Shown here: positions 1 to 9,642 of the stretch, one piece after another | Layout: the number at the start of each line of letters is the position of its first letter | Position numbering within the stretch: position 1 is the first letter of the stretch | NCBI RefSeq assembly: GCF_005435165.1 | Contig: NZ_SGUC01000006.1 | Location: forward strand, 1 to 64,000 | Length of the DNA: 64,000 bases | Reading direction: 5' to 3' | Source of the DNA: Halorubrum sp. GN11_10-6_MGM | Lineage (GTDB): Archaea; Halobacteriota; Halobacteria; Halobacteriales; Haloferacaceae | Translations under genes and position numbers: made by a program | Notes under the pieces: generated by a model | The model's input: the letters and a program-made list of their open reading frames with translations, nothing else | Told to the model about the DNA's origin: nothing | Database searches by the model: none

Positions 1-223
1 CCCGCGGGGGTCGTACCGCGAGCGCCTCGCGCCGAACCTCCGCGCCCGCCACGCGATCATGTGGACCAGCGCGACCGTCGGCGCGTCGAGCCGGCGGTTG
101 ACGCACAGCAGCGAGGGGTGCGCCAGCCCGTCCTCGACGACGACGTCGAACCCCGAGAGCCGGGCCGCGAGTCGGCGGGCGCGGAGGTTCGGCGCGAGGC
201 GCTCGCGGTACGACCCCCGCGGG
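1..223. repeat. 50-bp perfect inverted repeat (1-50 and 174-223)
   Basis: Bases 1-50 are the exact reverse complement of bases 174-223, with 123 bases between. The match stops at base 51. It lies wholly inside a protein-coding gene and touches the window edge, which fits a chimeric contig end better than a biological palindrome. Confidence 0.95.
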
Positions 224-342
224 AGCGAGACGACCTCGACCGCGTGTCCGCGCTCGCGGAGGCGGTCGCGGAGCCGCCGGTCGTAGTAGAAGCCGCCCGA
301 CTCGGACTCGATGTCGCCGGCGAGGACGAGGGCGACGCGCAT
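1..342 (-). CDS. glycosyltransferase (GT-B, group 1-like), N-terminal part only
   Basis: The reading frame starts with ATG at 342 and runs off the left edge without a stop. It begins MRVALVLAGDIESESGGFYY, with a hydrophobic first strand, a glycine loop and then RLRERGHAVEVVSLP. This is the usual start of a GT-B glycosyltransferase Rossmann domain. The start codon lies 8 bases after the stop of the pterin-synthase-like gene, so it is the third gene of an operon with that gene and the MDR dehydrogenase. The last 16 or so codons (bases 50-1) turn strongly basic, unlike the rest. Bases 1-50 are an exact inverted copy of 174-223, so this tail is probably an assembly fold-back. Family assignment is moderate because no C-terminal domain is visible; the acceptor is unknown. 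Confidence 0.65.
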   Translation of the reverse strand, partial: MRVALVLAGDIESESGGFYYDRRLRDRLRERGHAVEVVSLPRGSYRERLAPNLRARRLAARLSGFDVVVEDGLAHPSLLCVNRRLDAPTVALVHMIAWRARRFGARRSRYDPRG

Positions 343-349
343 CACGCGC

Positions 350-721
350 TCACTCCAGCGCGCCGGCGTAGGAGACGCTCGCGACGTCGTCCTCGCGAAC
401 GGTCACGGCCAGTTCGGTCGCGGCCGGCGCTTCCACGTCGGCGAGCGCGTCGAACAGCGCCCGCGCCAGTCGCTCCGCGCTCGGGTTGCCGTCGAGGTGG
501 TCGTTGAGCGTCTCGTCGCGGTAGCTGTCGGCGACGCCGCTCAGGGCTTCGACGGCGAGGTCGATGTCGAGCAGATAGCCGTGCTCGCCGAGGGCCGGGC
601 CGCGGAACGTCGCCTCCGCGGTGAACGTGTGCGAGTGGAGTTCGGCCTCGTCCGCCGGCGGGTTCGGGACGGTGAGGTAGTGCTGTGCGACGAACGATTC
701 GGTGACGGTCAGTTCGTACAT
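350..721 (-). CDS. 6-pyruvoyl-tetrahydropterin synthase / QueD-like protein, atypical active site
   Basis: This 123-residue protein has the T-fold pattern of the PTPS/QueD family: an N-terminal histidine (AQHYLTV) and a second pair (HSHTF) that would bind zinc, where the family usually has HGH. The catalytic Cys four residues before that pair is Glu here (EAELHSH). A Glu near this place is known in the PTPS-III subgroup, which acts in folate synthesis, but there the spacing is EXXHGH, so this is not a clean match. The ATG at 721 overlaps the end of the dehydrogenase gene by 13 bases, and the glycosyltransferase starts 8 bases downstream. Translational coupling suggests one pathway, not necessarily queuosine or archaeosine synthesis. 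Family membership is good, reaction unknown. Confidence 0.8.
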   Translation of the reverse strand: MYELTVTESFVAQHYLTVPNPPADEAELHSHTFTAEATFRGPALGEHGYLLDIDLAVEALSGVADSYRDETLNDHLDGNPSAERLARALFDALADVEAPAATELAVTVREDDVASVSYAGALE

Positions 722-1770
722 GGGTAGGTGAAGAGGAGCTGGAGGGTCGGTTCGGTCTCGTCGGCGAGGCGTCGGTACGCGCTCGGCGCGTTCGAGACGG
801 GGACGCGGTCGGTGACGAGTCGATCGGCGACGTCGAGGTCGGCGTCGAGCCGTCTGAGCTCGCGCCAGGCGGTCTCGCGCCGGCGTTCGCGGTCCCAGCG
901 CCCGCGGAGTTCGGGCGCGATGGTGGTGACCTGACTGCTCCGGACCGTCACCCGCCCCCGGTGGAAGTGGTCGCCGAAGCCGAGGTCGGCGCGCTTGGTG
1001 CCGTACCACGAGCCGACGAGGACGCGCCCGTCGAACCGGGTCGTCTCGACGGCCGTCTCCAGCGTCTCCGGGCGGCCCGAGACCTCGACCGCGAGATCGA
1101 CGCCGTCGCCGGCCCGCCCGCGAACGGCGTCGACGACGCCCGCGCGCCCGTCGTGTCGGCTCGGATCGACGACGGCGTCGGCGCCGAACTCGGCCGCGAG
1201 TCGGCGTCGGCGGTCCTTCGGCTCGACCGCGACGACGGTCTCGGCGCCGCTCCGGGCGAGCAGGGCCGTCGTGAGCAGTCCGACGACGCCCTGTCCGAAC
1301 ACCGCGACGCGCTCGCCGATCCGGGGGGCGGCGTCGAGCGTCAGGGTGACGGCGGTCTCGGCGTTCGCGAACAGCGTCGCCGTCTCCGGGTCGATCCCGT
1401 CCGGCACCGGCCGGACGGCGTCCGCGGGGACGGTGAACCGGCTCTCGTGGGGGTTAAAGGCGAAGACGGTCCGGTCGAGCCACCCCGGGTCGACGCCGTC
1501 GCCGACCGCCGTCACCCGGCCGACGACCGCGTAGCCGTAGCGGAGCGGGTACGAGAAGTCGCCGTCGAGCGAGGCCAGCTCCTCGTCGGCGACGGTCTCG
1601 GGGTCGAGCTCGCCGCGGTACGCCAGCAGCTCCGACCCCGCGCTCACCGCCGAGACGGACGCGGAGACGACCACCTCGTCGGGGGCCGGGTCGGGGTCAG
1701 CGGTCGAGACGACTTCGACGCGCCTCGGCCCGGCGAACTCCACCGCCCGTTCTGTTCCCTCGTCGCTCAC
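709..1770 (-). CDS. MDR-family dehydrogenase (BchC/threonine-dehydrogenase-like, lacks catalytic Cys)
   Basis: The protein is 353 residues and has the medium-chain dehydrogenase layout: a GroES-like N-terminal domain and a Rossmann domain with VAVFGQGVVGLL as dinucleotide loop. The position of the zinc-binding Cys is Ala (SAGSELLAYRGE), as in the zinc-free BchC-like branch. The frame starts with GTG at 1770; an in-frame TGA three codons upstream excludes an earlier start. A TATA-like element (TTTATG on the minus strand, near 1843) would give a leader of about 45 bases. It is the first gene of a three-gene operon with the QueD-like protein and the glycosyltransferase. It probably oxidises or reduces a sugar or cyclitol intermediate (inference). 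Confidence 0.8.
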   Translation of the reverse strand: MSDEGTERAVEFAGPRRVEVVSTADPDPAPDEVVVSASVSAVSAGSELLAYRGELDPETVADEELASLDGDFSYPLRYGYAVVGRVTAVGDGVDPGWLDRTVFAFNPHESRFTVPADAVRPVPDGIDPETATLFANAETAVTLTLDAAPRIGERVAVFGQGVVGLLTTALLARSGAETVVAVEPKDRRRRLAAEFGADAVVDPSRHDGRAGVVDAVRGRAGDGVDLAVEVSGRPETLETAVETTRFDGRVLVGSWYGTKRADLGFGDHFHRGRVTVRSSQVTTIAPELRGRWDRERRRETAWRELRRLDADLDVADRLVTDRVPVSNAPSAYRRLADETEPTLQLLFTYPCTN

Positions 1771-2351: not shown

Positions 2352-3140
2352 TCAGTCGCTCCCCCGTCCCGCCGCGGTCGGCGGGTCCTCGCGTCCGAGC
2401 CGTCCCGTCGCGGCCGCCCAGTCGCGGGCGAAGCTCGCGAGCAGCGCCGCGAGCGCCACCGCCGCGAACGCGGTCAGCAGGGCCGACCGTCCCGCGAGTC
2501 CGACGCCCGGGAGGAGCGCGAGCGCGACGACGGCGAACTGCGCGGTGCCGACGACCGGTCGGAGTCGGCTCGGCGGCAGTTCGTACACCGGCTCCCCGGC
2601 CAGCCGCCGCCGCCACAGCGACCCGGCGTAGGCGTACCAAACGCCGCCCGCGATGAGGTACCACGCCGGGAGCGCACCGAGCGCGACGGCGACCGCGGCG
2701 CCGACGAGGACGGTCAGCGCGTCGGTGGCGCCGTCGAGCCGCGCGCCGAGGACCGTCTCGCGCGTGCGCCGGGCGACCGCGCCGTCGACCGCGTCGAGGC
2801 CGACCGCGCCGACGAAGAGAACCGCGGGGAGCCACGGAACCGGCGGCGACGCGACCGCCGCCCCGGCGAGGAGGACGGCGAGCCAGCCGCGGAACAGCGT
2901 GATCCCGTTCGCCGGTCCGAACCGCGGGGACGGGTCGCCGCCGTCGGGCGAGTGATTCGCTCCGAGGTTGGTCCACGCGTACGCGGCGAGGTACGCTGCG
3001 GGCAGCGATGCGGCGAGGACCCACGCGGTCCCGAGCGGGCGCCACAGCGCGGCGAGCCCGAGGACGCCGAGCGCGACGGCGCCCGCGAATCGGAGGCGGA
3101 GCCGAGAAGGTGGAGCCCCGGGCGACCCGGTCGCCGTCAT
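2352..3140 (-). CDS. CDP-alcohol phosphatidyltransferase family membrane protein
   Basis: The protein is 262 residues from ATG at 3140. It carries the complete CDP-alcohol phosphotransferase signature, DAVDGAVAR followed by GARLDGATD, which supplies the four metal-binding aspartates and the CMP-binding arginine. Six or so hydrophobic segments surround it. The family moves a phospho-alcohol from a CDP-activated lipid to an acceptor at the membrane; the acceptor cannot be read from sequence. The start was chosen one base after the Lhr stop codon, implying coupled translation; a longer reading to 3194 would overlap the Lhr gene. The C-terminal half is hydrophobic without motif, as usual. Confidence 0.85.
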   Translation of the reverse strand: MTATGSPGAPPSRLRLRFAGAVALGVLGLAALWRPLGTAWVLAASLPAAYLAAYAWTNLGANHSPDGGDPSPRFGPANGITLFRGWLAVLLAGAAVASPPVPWLPAVLFVGAVGLDAVDGAVARRTRETVLGARLDGATDALTVLVGAAVAVALGALPAWYLIAGGVWYAYAGSLWRRRLAGEPVYELPPSRLRPVVGTAQFAVVALALLPGVGLAGRSALLTAFAAVALAALLASFARDWAAATGRLGREDPPTAAGRGSD

Positions 3141-3141
3141 C

Positions 3142-6117
3142 TCAGTCCGACCCTCGGTCCGCCGGCGGTTCGGCGCCTCGCTCGCCGCGCTCACGCGCTT
3201 CTCCGCCGTTATCCCCGACCCCCCCGTCGGCGCCGCTCCGCGCCGGCTCGCCGATCTCTTCCATCACGCGGGCGTGGAACTCGCGGAGGACGGCCGACTC
3301 GTCGTCGGCGATGACGGTGTCGGAGTCGACGAGCGTCGCGAGCCCGAACGCGAGCGGGCTGGGCGAGTCGACGACGCGGTGTTCCACCGCGAGGTCGCCG
3401 GCCGCGATCCGGCCGACCGCGTCGGAGATCCCGGCGACGTCGAGGCGGTCTTCCAACAGCTCGCGGTACGTCTCCTCCAGCACGGCGAACTCCTCCAGAC
3501 CGGCCGCGAACGACAGCAGCATCTCGGCCGAGACCTGCTGTTCCGCGGCCGACTTCTCGTACCCCTTGTAGCGCTTTAAGATGAGCAGCGCCCGCCCGGC
3601 GTCGATCCGGAAGTAGCGCTGGAGGAGGTCCGTCCCCTGAACCGCCTCCCGGAGGTCCTCGCGGACCGTCTCGGGGTCGAGGTCGGCCAGAATCCCCGCC
3701 ACGTCGACCTTGCGGTTCAGCGGGAGCGCGAGCGAGAACCCGCGGTCCGCGACCGCGACGGCGACGTTGGCGTCGGTCCGGTTCGCCACCTCGGCGGCGA
3801 CGAGCCGCGAGAGCCCGTCGTTGAACCGCCGACCGTAGGTGGCGTGGACGTAGAAGCGGCGCTTGTACTCGCCCCGGTCCAGTTCCTCCTCGACGACGAG
3901 GCGGTCGGGCGTGGAGACGCTCTCGGGACCGGCGTACCGGACCTGCTCGTCGTACATCCGGGCGAGCGCGCGGACGGCGTTCTCGTCGAGGGGCAACTCG
4001 CGGAGCCACGCGCGGACCGCGGCCGGGCCAGCGTTCGGGTCGTCGCCGGCCAGCCGGTCGAGGAGTTCGCCTTGGAAGTCGAGGACCTCGCGCGCGAGGT
4101 CCGCAGAGAGGGGGAGACGCTCGGCGAACCACGACGGGACCGTCGGGCGCTCGCTCGTTCGGTCGACGTACACCTTCGAGCCGCGGCGGTAGCGGAACGC
4201 GAAGCGCTCGCCGCCCAGCGCGAACACGTCGCCGGACTCCAGCGTGTCGAGGTACGACTCGTCTAAGGTGCCGACCCACTCGTCGTCGCGCGTGAACACG
4301 TCGCACGTGAACGAGTCGGGGATCGTCCCCACGTTCGTCATGTAGATGACCCGCGCGAGCCGCCCGCGCTTCCCGACGAGCGTCTCGTCAACCGGGAACT
4401 CGGCGTGGTGATGCTCGCCGTCCGGCGGGTCGTTCGCGTCGCGCCACACCTTCGGGTAGACGTTCTTCTCCTCCAGCCCGTCGTAGTCACCCGTCAGATA
4501 CCGCATGAGTCGCTCGTACGCGTCCTCGTCGAAGCCGCGGTAGGGGTGCGCGCGACGGAGCACCTCGCGGACCTCGCGGTCCGGTCGGATCCGGTTTATC
4601 GCCATCCCGTAGACGTGCTGGGCGGCGACGTCGTAGGCGCCCTCGGGCGGGAACACCCGGTCGACGAACCCGTCCTCGGCCCGCGCGAGCAGCGTCGCGC
4701 ACTCGATCAGCTCGTCGCGGTCGAGGGCGAACACTCGCCCCTCGACGGTCTCGCCCGGACTGTGGCCCGCGCGGCCGACGCGCTGGAGCAGCGCGGCGAC
4801 GGACTTGGGCGAGCCCACCTGAACCACCAGATCGAGGTGGGGCATGTCGATGCCGAGTTCGAGGCTCGTCGAGGTGGTGACGACGTCGAGGTCGCCCGCC
4901 TTCAACCCCTCCTCGACCCGGGTGCGCTGCGCCTCGCCGAGGCTCCCGTGGTGGACCCCCGAGTCGGACTCGTCGTAGCCGAACCGCTCGCGGAGCTCTT
5001 GGAGCGTGCGCTCGGCGCCCGACCGGGAGTTCGTGAACACCAGCGTGTTCTCGTGGGACGCGATCAGCTCGCGGAGCGACTCGTAGAACCGGTCGGTCAC
5101 CGCCGACCGCGGCGTGTGGACGAGGTCGGCGGCGGGCGTCCGGAGTTCGAGGTCGAACTCGCGGGCGAACCGGGCGTCGACCACCTCGCAGGGGCGCGTC
5201 TCGAACCCGTCGGCGTCGCCGACCGCACCGCTCGCGCGCTCGCGGCCGACGAGGAACGACGCGATCCCGTCGAGCGGTTCGACCGTCGCCGAGCAGCCGA
5301 TTCGTGTGATGTCACCGGGCTCGTGCGCCGAGGAGTCGCCGTCGGGGGCGTGCCGCGTCAGTTCGGTCAGTCGCTCCAGCGACACCGAGAGATGGGTGCC
5401 GCGCTTGTTGGCGGCCAGCGAATGGATCTCGTCGACGATCACGTACTCGACGCTGCGGAGCTTCTCCTTGAACTTCGGCGAGTTGAGCAAGATCGCGAGC
5501 GTCTCGGGCGTGGTGTTGAGCACGTGCGGCGTCTCCGAGAGCATCGCCTGCCGGTCCGCCTTCGAGGTGTCGCTGTGGCGGATCGCCTGCCGGACGCCGG
5601 GGTCGTAGGCGTCGTCCGCGTCGGAGTTGCCGGCGTCGCCTCCGTCCGCCTCCGCCGCGGCGACCGCCTCGCCGATCCCCGCAAGCGGGGCTTCGAGGTT
5701 CCGCTCGATGTCGTTTGCGAGCGACTTCAGGGGCGAGACGTAGAGGCAGTAGACGGCGTTCTCCAACTCACCGGCGCGGTCGCGCGCGAAGAGGTCGTCG
5801 AGGACCGCGAGGAAGGAGGCGAGCGTCTTCCCGCTGCCCGTCGGCGCGGCGACGAGGCAGTTCTCCCCGGCGTCGACGTGGGGGATCGCCTCGCGCTGCG
5901 GCGGCGTGAAGAAGCCGCCGTTCTCGGCGACGTACTCGCCGAAGCGCTCGACCCACCAGCGGCGGACCGGCGGCGAGAGCCGAGCGAGCACGTCGGCGTC
6001 CCCGATCGGGACCGTCTCCGGATCGAAGTCCGGATCCGCGATAGCGCCGCGATCGACCGCGTCGCGGAGGAGCGCCCGCGCGGCGGCCTCGTCACCCCGG
6101 TCCGTGGTCTCGCTCAC
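3142..6117 (-). CDS. lhr: Lhr-type ATP-dependent helicase (large DEAD/DEAH helicase)
   Basis: The protein is about 991 residues from GTG at 6117. Superfamily 2 motifs are clear: Walker A APTGSGKT (residues 91-98), DEIH box (229-232), SATVE (276-280) and helicase C motifs such as TNSRSGAERT and QRVGRAGHS. A long C-terminal region follows, typical of Lhr proteins, which act on RNA:DNA hybrids and branched DNA in repair. The frame is open to 6258, but that would overlap the divergent CMP kinase promoter, so the GTG just before SETTDRGDE is preferred. The CDP-alcohol transferase follows immediately. A small acidic insert (near residues 155-172) is halophile-specific decoration. Confidence 0.9.
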   Translation of the reverse strand: MSETTDRGDEAAARALLRDAVDRGAIADPDFDPETVPIGDADVLARLSPPVRRWWVERFGEYVAENGGFFTPPQREAIPHVDAGENCLVAAPTGSGKTLASFLAVLDDLFARDRAGELENAVYCLYVSPLKSLANDIERNLEAPLAGIGEAVAAAEADGGDAGNSDADDAYDPGVRQAIRHSDTSKADRQAMLSETPHVLNTTPETLAILLNSPKFKEKLRSVEYVIVDEIHSLAANKRGTHLSVSLERLTELTRHAPDGDSSAHEPGDITRIGCSATVEPLDGIASFLVGRERASGAVGDADGFETRPCEVVDARFAREFDLELRTPAADLVHTPRSAVTDRFYESLRELIASHENTLVFTNSRSGAERTLQELRERFGYDESDSGVHHGSLGEAQRTRVEEGLKAGDLDVVTTSTSLELGIDMPHLDLVVQVGSPKSVAALLQRVGRAGHSPGETVEGRVFALDRDELIECATLLARAEDGFVDRVFPPEGAYDVAAQHVYGMAINRIRPDREVREVLRRAHPYRGFDEDAYERLMRYLTGDYDGLEEKNVYPKVWRDANDPPDGEHHHAEFPVDETLVGKRGRLARVIYMTNVGTIPDSFTCDVFTRDDEWVGTLDESYLDTLESGDVFALGGERFAFRYRRGSKVYVDRTSERPTVPSWFAERLPLSADLAREVLDFQGELLDRLAGDDPNAGPAAVRAWLRELPLDENAVRALARMYDEQVRYAGPESVSTPDRLVVEEELDRGEYKRRFYVHATYGRRFNDGLSRLVAAEVANRTDANVAVAVADRGFSLALPLNRKVDVAGILADLDPETVREDLREAVQGTDLLQRYFRIDAGRALLILKRYKGYEKSAAEQQVSAEMLLSFAAGLEEFAVLEETYRELLEDRLDVAGISDAVGRIAAGDLAVEHRVVDSPSPLAFGLATLVDSDTVIADDESAVLREFHARVMEEIGEPARSGADGGVGDNGGEARERGERGAEPPADRGSD

Positions 6118-7519: not shown

Positions 7520-8332
7520 ATGGACGATCCAGACGAGCTGGCGCCGGCGGTCAGGTCGATCCTGTCCGCCGCTCGGGAGCGGTCGACCGGGCGAGCGGAC
7601 GCGAGCGGGACCGTCTCGGTCTCGCCGCGGGACCTCTCGGCCGCGTTCGAGCGGGCCGAGGCCGACGGGCGCGTCCCGCTTATCGCGGAGGTGAAGCCGA
7701 CGAGTCCGACGACCGAGGGCACCCGCGAGGACGACCCGGTCGCGCTCGCGGAGGAGATGGTCGCCGGCGGGGCGGCCGCCCTGAGCGTCCTCACCGAGCC
7801 GGAACACTTCGGCGGGAGCGTCGACACCCTCGAACGCGTGCGCGCCGCCGTCGACGTGCCGGTCCTCCGGAAGGACTTCGTCGTCGAGGAGTCGCAGCTG
7901 GACGCCGTCGAGAGCGACGTCGTCCTCCTCATCGCCCGGTTCGTCGGCGACGACCTCCCGGACCTGCTCGCGGCCGCCCGCGATCGGGGGTTTCAGGTCC
8001 TCGTCGAGGTCCACGACCGCGAGGAGCTGGAGCGGGCGATCGACGCCGGCGCGACGACGGTCGGCGTCAACAACCGCGACCTCGCGGAGCTGGTCGTCGA
8101 CCTCGGAACCTTCGAGTCCGTGGCGCCCCACGTCCCGGACGAGGTGACGCTGATCGCCGAGAGCGGTATCGGGTCGCCCGCGGACGTCCGCCGGATGCGC
8201 GCCGTGGGCGCCGACGCGCTGCTCGTCGGGAGCGCGATCATGGACGGCGATGTGGAGGCGAACACGCGGGACCTGACGCGGGCGGAGGCGGCGACCGACG
8301 ACGCGACGGAGACAACGGAGACACCCACATGA
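7520..8332 (+). CDS. trpC: indole-3-glycerol-phosphate synthase
   Basis: The 270-residue TIM-barrel enzyme closes the indole ring of CDRP, the step before tryptophan synthase. Key residues are visible: IAEVKPTSP with catalytic Lys59, VLRKDFVV with Lys118, [14 protein letters not shown] for phosphate binding and LVGSAIM. It is the first gene of trpCBA; its stop overlaps the trpB start in an ATGA. The C-terminal 15 residues are a Thr/Glu/Asp-rich tail, typical for halophiles. The trpD, trpF and trpEG genes are not in this window. Confidence 0.97.
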
Positions 8333-9642
8333 GCGAGACCGACACGCGGACGACGGACGCAACGGACGGCGCGGCGCCCTCGCGGCGACCGGGTCGCGAG
8401 CGCGGGCGGGGCGACGGGAAGTTCGGCCGCTACGGCGGCCAGTACGTCCCGGAAGCGCTGATGCCGGCGATCGAGGAGCTGACCGACGCCTACGAGCGCT
8501 ACGTCCTGAACAACGAGGACGGGTTCATGGACGAGTTCCGCGAGCGCCTCGCCGACTTCGGCGGCCGCCCGACGCCACTCCAGCGCGCCGACCGCCTCTC
8601 CGAGCGCTACGACACGGAGGTGTACCTCAAGCGCGAAGACCTCCTCCACGGCGGCGCCCACAAGCTGAACAACGCGCTCGGGCAGGTCCTCTTGGCGAAG
8701 TACATGGGTAAAGAGCGCATCATCGCGGAGACCGGGGCCGGCCAGCACGGCACCGCGACCGCGATGGCGGCCGCGCACCTCGATATGCCCTGTACGATCT
8801 ACATGGGCGAGCGCGACATCAACCGCCAGCGCCCCAACGTGTTCCGGATGAAGCTCAACGGCTCGGAGGTGAAGCCGGTGACGACGGGCCGGGGCACGCT
8901 CAAGGAGGCCATCTCCGAGACGATGCGCGACTGGGCCGCAACGGTCGAGGACACCCACTACGTGATCGGCTCGATCGTCGGCCCCCACCCGTTCCCGGTG
9001 ATGGTCCGCGACTTCCAGGCGGTCATCTCCGAGGAGGCCCGCGAGCAGGCGATCGAGAAGACGGGCGGGCTCCCGACCGACGTGGTCGCCTGCGCCGGCG
9101 GCGGCTCGAACACGATGGGCGCGTTCGCCGAGTTCGTCGACGACGAGTCCGTCGCGCTCCGCGCGGTCGAGGCCGGCGGATCGACCCTCGAAGTCGACGA
9201 GGAGGCGGGCGTGGCGCCCAACTCCGCGTCGCTTTTCGCGGGCGAGGAGGGCGTCCTCCACGGCGCCCGCACGAAGCTGCTCCAGGACTCCGACGGGCAG
9301 ATCATGGAGAGCCACTCGGTGTCGTCCGGGCTCGACTACGCCGGCGTCGGCCCCGAGCTCGCGTACCTCGTCGACGAGGGGCGCGTGGAGCCGGTCGCGG
9401 TCGACGACGACGCCGCGCTGGAGGGGTTCCACCGACTCTCCTCGACGGAGGGGATAATCCCCGCCTTGGAGACGGCGCACGCGTTCGGCTACCTCGAAGA
9501 ACACCACGATGAGCTCGGCGAGCGCGTGGTCGTGAACGTCTCCGGTCGCGGGGACAAGGACCTCGACGCCGCCATCGAGGAGACGGACCAGCGAGACCTG
9601 CCGAACGCGCCGGACATGTCGATGTTCACGGAGGGGATCTGA
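8329..9642 (+). CDS. trpB: tryptophan synthase beta subunit
   Basis: The 437-residue PLP enzyme condenses indole with serine. The PLP lysine sits in HGGAHKLNN (Lys112); the phosphate-binding loop GGGSN and the C-terminal [10 protein letters not shown] are present. The first 30 residues are a Thr/Asp/Arg-rich extension before [15 protein letters not shown], where family members normally begin. ATG at 8329 overlaps the trpC stop by four bases, and trpA starts at the base after its stop, so the three genes are tightly coupled. This is the TrpB1 type that partners TrpA, judging from the neighbouring trpA and normal length. Confidence 0.97.

Follow-up and report, generated by a model that had tools for sequence, protein, structure and literature searches.

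The analyzed window is taken from a draft haloarchaeal genome, in which it makes up the first 64 kb (64,000 nucleotides) of contig C168. Three genes were located on the reverse strand at the contig end, i.e., the N-terminal part of a GT4 glycosyltransferase (51–342; Glyco_transf_4), a PTPS/QueD-fold protein of a Cys-less subfamily of COG0720 (350–721; PF01242, E=9.8e-19), and a zinc-free MDR dehydrogenase (709–1770; PF00107, E=3e-19). A DUF7475 four-helix membrane protein, a conserved neighbor in haloarchaea, is encoded on the divergent forward strand (1945–2304). The next gene, on the reverse strand, encodes a membrane enzyme of the CDP-alcohol phosphatidyltransferase family (2352–3116) with an intact DxxDGxxARx8GxxxDxxxD motif, for which a longer start at 3194 is possible. 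The first three genes overlap or nearly touch, as was originally predicted: the MDR and PTPS-like genes overlap by 13 nt, and the PTPS-like and glycosyltransferase genes lie a few nt apart. In relatives, the latter gap almost always falls between −8 and +7 nt, which fits the expectation for co-transcribed genes.

The contig end is an assembly foldback artifact, in which bases 1–50 are an exact inverted copy of 174–223. The glycosyltransferase is therefore cut short, with a false stretch of ~17 codons at its end in the window. The predicted glycosyltransferase family was correct, but the window copy is only a fragment with an artificial C-terminal end. The remaining part was found on contig C115 (5–793, forward strand), where it corresponds to residues 106–368 of a relative at 83% identity; the window part is 92–96% identical to its closest relatives. 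A SAM methyltransferase gene directly follows the remainder on C115. The operon is complete in the source genome and was split by assembly over the two contigs; it consists of the CDP-alcohol phosphotransferase, DUF7475, MDR, PTPS-like, GT4, and methyltransferase genes. Full-length glycosyltransferase relatives have Glycos_transf_1 and Glyco_transf_4 domains and an ExFGxxxLE-type motif. When the Methylosinus glycosyltransferase was searched in the source genome, the split gene was the best match.

The PTPS-like protein had been predicted to have the QueD/PTPS fold with Glu in place of the catalytic Cys and HSH in place of HGH, and both features were confirmed. The QueD reference residues (E. 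coli numbering), i.e., H16, C27, H31, H33, D70, and H71, were present in 24 of 24 QueD sequences. The window protein has H14, E25, H29, H31, R68, D69, and E110, and its motif is ExxxHSH, whereas that of QueD is CxxxHGH. Among haloarchaeal operon members, Glu was found at the C27 site (40/40), Asp or Glu at the H71 site (40/40), and Arg at the D70 site (34/40); all zinc His are retained, and E25 and D69 are kept almost without exception. Bacterial operon members have Ala at the Cys site and Tyr at the His site, both in 11/11, and five of the 11 have no third zinc His. The catalytic Cys and His of QueD were missing from every operon member checked, and the pterin-anchoring Glu (E110 in the window) is retained.

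The AlphaFold model of this protein (pLDDT 97) had SCO6650 of Streptomyces as its top PDB match (TM 0.88), with QueD next; SCO6650 is also the best solved relative by sequence. A tree built on few columns and including some long branches had a 100/98 branch that set all QueD proteins apart from all operon members. On the NCBIfam QueD model (TIGR03367, cutoff 89.25) the window protein scored 38.6 bits, although the canonical QueD of the same genome also scored below the cutoff (72.8). A role as QueD or in archaeosine synthesis was rejected on the lost signature, the separate branch, and the canonical queD-queE-queC genes of this genome, which are found on contig C122 (L053:7313-9307). A YhhQ-like membrane gene adjoins that operon on C122. 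The statement that no queuosine/archaeosine or folate partners lie at the locus held; the conserved neighbors showed no folate gene. A folate PTPS-III was rejected as well, since that type is defined by ExxHGH (PMC5041015) and the window protein has ExxxHSH. The database label "6-carboxytetrahydropterin synthase" is probably wrong for this family.

With the triad lost in all members, and the third zinc ligand also absent from the Streptomyces type, the protein might be considered a non-catalytic binding, carrier, or regulatory subunit for a pathway intermediate. We give this a slim chance, as the archaeal zinc ligands, E25, and D69 are almost invariant, and the conservation of these residues suggests a metal-dependent reaction.

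The MDR dehydrogenase was predicted as a zinc-free, BchC-like protein. The zinc-free part is supported, because the window protein has YGYA in place of GHE and no Cys is conserved among 35 members. The BchC part was not: the BchC model TIGR01202 gave 74.2 bits, far under its cutoff of 291, and TDH scored slightly better (81.5). A search of the haloarchaeal genome as a whole with the MDR of the Streptomyces operon gave a single significant match, the window MDR (1.7e-37), and the two were assigned as orthologs. In an archaeal contig (G586:C114), a natural fusion of GTP cyclohydrolase II and the MDR was found at L172:1990-3720, with the PTPS-like and glycosyltransferase genes following it.

The original prediction regarded the operon as an orphan and proposed an analysis of conserved neighborhoods. 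In that analysis the partner set recurred in haloarchaea and bacteria, so the orphan status does not stand. Matches to the PTPS-like family were found in 160 of 293 genomes and 59 of 87 genera of the order, a count that may take in other COG0720 members at its weak end. Thirty-nine haloarchaeal loci, window included, were compared; they were chosen by similarity and genus spread, and the counts are not unbiased rates. Within seven genes, the MDR was found in 35 loci, the glycosyltransferase and the methyltransferase in 29 each, the CDP-alcohol enzyme in 26, DUF7475 in 23, ArfA in eight, a MocA/aldo-keto reductase fusion in seven, and FkbM in four. The gene order of the full operon recurs in most of them. 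Some loci have no glycosyltransferase, methyltransferase, or CDP-alcohol enzyme, and one (L043) has the PTPS-like gene alone; the MDR-PTPS-glycosyltransferase trio is retained in loci without the CDP-alcohol enzyme. On plasmid pNG700 of Haloarcula marismortui (L153, ~8001–8374), the PTPS-like frame is broken and unannotated, and the other operon genes look intact. One genome (G120) has two operon copies (L188 and L189), of which one has a frameshifted PTPS-like gene and the other its own arfA.

The operon is conserved across archaea and bacteria, and the order MDR-PTPS-GT4-methyltransferase is common to both. Its hosts outside haloarchaea include Streptomyces, Rhizobiaceae, Methylosinus, Thiodictyon, and Microbacterium. 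In Streptomyces loci, the MDR, PTPS, GT4, methyltransferase, LPG_synthase_TM, and GTP cyclohydrolase II genes run in one direction, and several have a divergent CDP-alcohol enzyme gene directly upstream. The four-gene order is retained on plasmids of Thiodictyon, Methylosinus trichosporium, Peteryoungia, and Microbacterium; Palleronia has MDR-PTPS-methyltransferase with the GT4 gene five genes off, and further actinobacterial genomes have RibD-MDR-PTPS-glycosyltransferase. Genes for RibD-family, RibA, CDP-alcohol, FkbM, LPG_TM, cytochrome b561, or sulfatase proteins were found near the bacterial plasmid loci. An exception is S. anthocyanicus (L160), in which the PTPS-like gene is present without other recognized operon genes. 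The structure model of DUF7475 is confident and predicts a four-helix membrane protein with two invariant His at a spacing of 14 residues. These features made a cytochrome b a candidate identity, but a Foldseek search of this model against solved structures gave no significant match. In some bacterial clusters a cytochrome b561 gene takes the place of DUF7475.

Two unrelated GTP cyclohydrolase families were found in the clusters, i.e., type III (ArfA, PF05165) in haloarchaea and type II (PF00925) in bacteria and some archaea. In its eight haloarchaeal loci, arfA is usually directly next to the MDR gene. Four haloarchaea (G054, G120, G182, and G190) have a second arfA copy inside the operon, and in five others (G014, G084, G173, G188, and G196) the sole full arfA copy is inside it. 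RibA neighbors were found in Streptomyces, Peteryoungia, Palleronia, and actinobacterial loci L180, L186, and L187, and one of the three GTP cyclohydrolase II genes of a Streptomyces genome (G293) is clustered. RibD_C neighbors were found in L154, L155, L156, L158, L159, and L180–L187. The clustered RibD proteins tested have the RibD_C reductase domain, and one of them scores on the archaeal diaminopyrimidine reductase model, under its cutoff. An ArfB-like creatininase gene lies near the operon in H. marismortui. The window operon, like most haloarchaeal loci, has no GTP cyclohydrolase or RibD gene within it; in the source genome, ArfA and RibD_C are each encoded once, on contigs other than C168, so that there the pathway would draw on the housekeeping supply.

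The possibility that all clustered GTP cyclohydrolases II form only the formylamino product was rejected, as Met replaces Tyr105 in Streptomyces only and the others have Tyr. The Met of the Streptomyces enzyme fits the activity of SCO6655, which reportedly makes only the formylamino intermediate. Haloferax volcanii presumably has a version of the operon adjoining arfA, judging from locus numbers and related loci. Deletion of arfA in this species results in riboflavin auxotrophy (PMC8305020).

These neighbors bear on three other explanations. First, the operon could make a lipid head group unrelated to pterins, i.e., a glycolipid or phospholipid, with the PTPS-fold protein and GTP cyclohydrolases being incidental. 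The CDP-alcohol phosphotransferase in 26/39 loci, the bacterial LPG_synthase_TM and FkbM genes, and PimB' and MshA among the nearest solved relatives of the GT4 protein would suit such a product. However, two unrelated GTP cyclohydrolase families and RibD recur, one cyclohydrolase being fused to the MDR, and the MDR-PTPS-glycosyltransferase trio persists without the CDP-alcohol enzyme, which makes an incidental association quite improbable.

Second, the operon could serve a known cofactor, i.e., F420, riboflavin, or folate, with the PTPS-like protein being the haloarchaeal PTPS-IV. Among COG0720 subfamilies, a review describes PTPS-IV as involved in F420 synthesis (unpublished) and PTPS-V as unclear (PMC5041015). 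ArfA supplies both riboflavin and F420. However, the PTPS-like family was not found in ~45% of the genomes of the order, and dedicated second arfA copies occur. The synthesis of these cofactors offers no evident role for the glycosyltransferase, methyltransferase, or CDP-alcohol enzyme, and we put the probability of this explanation low.

Third, the PTPS-like protein may make 6-pyruvoyl-tetrahydropterin from dihydroneopterin triphosphate, with the MDR then standing in for sepiapterin reductase to reduce this compound before its glycosylation by the GT4 protein, as in the synthesis of cyanobacterial biopterin glucoside. The retained zinc ligands and pterin-anchoring Glu are consistent with this, and the kinds of enzyme are the same, i.e., PTPS, ketone reductase, and pterin glycosyltransferase (PMC3546692). 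However, the catalytic Cys and His are gone from every operon member, and the neighboring RibA, ArfA, and RibD_C enzymes start the riboflavin branch, whereas no gene of the GTP cyclohydrolase I type was recognized among the operon neighbors. SCO6650, the structural homolog, is reported not to carry out the PTPS reaction. This route is rather improbable, and dihydroneopterin triphosphate, which had been suggested for activity tests, is a less likely substrate than a diaminopyrimidine of the riboflavin type.

By the association with GTP cyclohydrolases, the product of the operon very probably derives from GTP. The chance is about even that the genes form the core of a conserved operon for a GTP-derived, pterin-like glycoside. 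For the pterin-type ring, a point of chemistry, the chance falls slightly short of even, and a lipid-linked product is possible but somewhat doubtful. The pathway was originally expected to make a modified or glycosylated small molecule or lipid head group, and the conserved GT4, SAM methyltransferase, and CDP-alcohol phosphotransferase partners bear this out in general terms.

In the proposed GTP-derived pathway, haloarchaeal ArfA or bacterial RibA would act as the GTP cyclohydrolase and open GTP as in riboflavin synthesis to give a formylamino- or diamino-ribosylaminopyrimidine phosphate, with deformylation by the ArfB-like creatininase where required. A RibD_C-type reductase, clustered in bacteria and perhaps the housekeeping enzyme in haloarchaea, would then convert the ribosyl to the ribityl group. 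The MDR, a relative of polyol and ketose dehydrogenases, would oxidize a side-chain hydroxyl. If this occurs at C2', the product would be the 1-deoxy-2-keto amine that GTP cyclohydrolase I forms in its Amadori step, and it may close to a dihydropterin ring. Reduction to ribityl followed by reoxidation at C2' would give a purpose to the pairing of RibD and MDR. With its conserved Glu, the PTPS-fold protein may hold the pyrimidine or pterin and aid ring closure or side-chain remodeling by a mechanism other than the Cys/Asp/His chemistry of QueD or PTPS. Finally, a sugar would be added by the GT4 protein, a methyl group by the methyltransferase, and a phospho-alcohol or lipid by the CDP-alcohol phosphotransferase. 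The order of these steps is our inference, as is the oxidation at C2', which draws on known riboflavin and pterin chemistry.

A bolder version of this pathway, unlikely but worth stating, is a pterin route independent of GTP cyclohydrolase I, in which closure by a Cys-less PTPS leads to a glycosylated, methylated, lipid-linked membrane pterin. Archaea and bacteria would then have in common a new branch of cofactor or pigment synthesis from GTP. Such a pterin is perhaps redox-active, as suggested by the cytochrome b561 and DUF7475 neighbors. Haloarchaea contain unusual pterins, i.e., phosphohalopterin and sulfohalopterin; as products of the operon these are a lead only, and no usable open paper on them was found. 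Among the open papers searched, none on the operon was found, and none gives it a product. An operon whose order is kept in haloarchaea, Actinomycetota, and Proteobacteria, and for which several genomes have dedicated GTP cyclohydrolases, should make something useful.

Compared with known systems, the operon shares its first enzymes with the riboflavin branch (ArfA, ArfB, RibA, and RibD_C), of which several genomes have extra copies, but the MDR, PTPS-like protein, and glycosyltransferase stand in place of lumazine and riboflavin synthases, neither of which was recognized in the clusters. QueD (PTPS-I), the 6-carboxytetrahydropterin synthase, has the T-fold, zinc His, and pterin-anchoring Glu in common with the window protein, which differs in having no CxxxHGH Cys, no Asp-His pair, and no queE or queC neighbors. 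The PTPS-III of the folate bypass in Plasmodium and bacteria is similar in a Glu near the place of the Cys; however, the Glu of the window protein is at position −4 relative to the first His rather than −3, and the catalytic His is replaced by Asp. The cyanobacterial biopterin glucoside/cyanopterin pathway starts with GTP cyclohydrolase I, has a catalytically intact PTPS, and is not known to include RibA, RibD, or a CDP-alcohol enzyme. Its logic of a PTPS-fold protein, a reductase, and a pterin glycosyltransferase (BGluT/PgtA; PMC3546692) is similar.

The nearest system is that of SCO6650 (PDB 3D7J). Both proteins have the same fold and have lost the Cys/His signature, and the SCO6650 cluster has the MDR-PTPS-glycosyltransferase-methyltransferase order, a CDP-alcohol enzyme nearby, and a clustered GTP cyclohydrolase (SCO6655). 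The Streptomyces type has Ala/Tyr at the Cys/His sites, no third zinc His, and GTP cyclohydrolase II, whereas the haloarchaeal type has Glu/Asp, all three His, and GTP cyclohydrolase III. SCO6650 is a puzzle structure, a PTPS homolog without the triad that is reported to lack zinc and PTPS activity as well, and the operon gives it a context.
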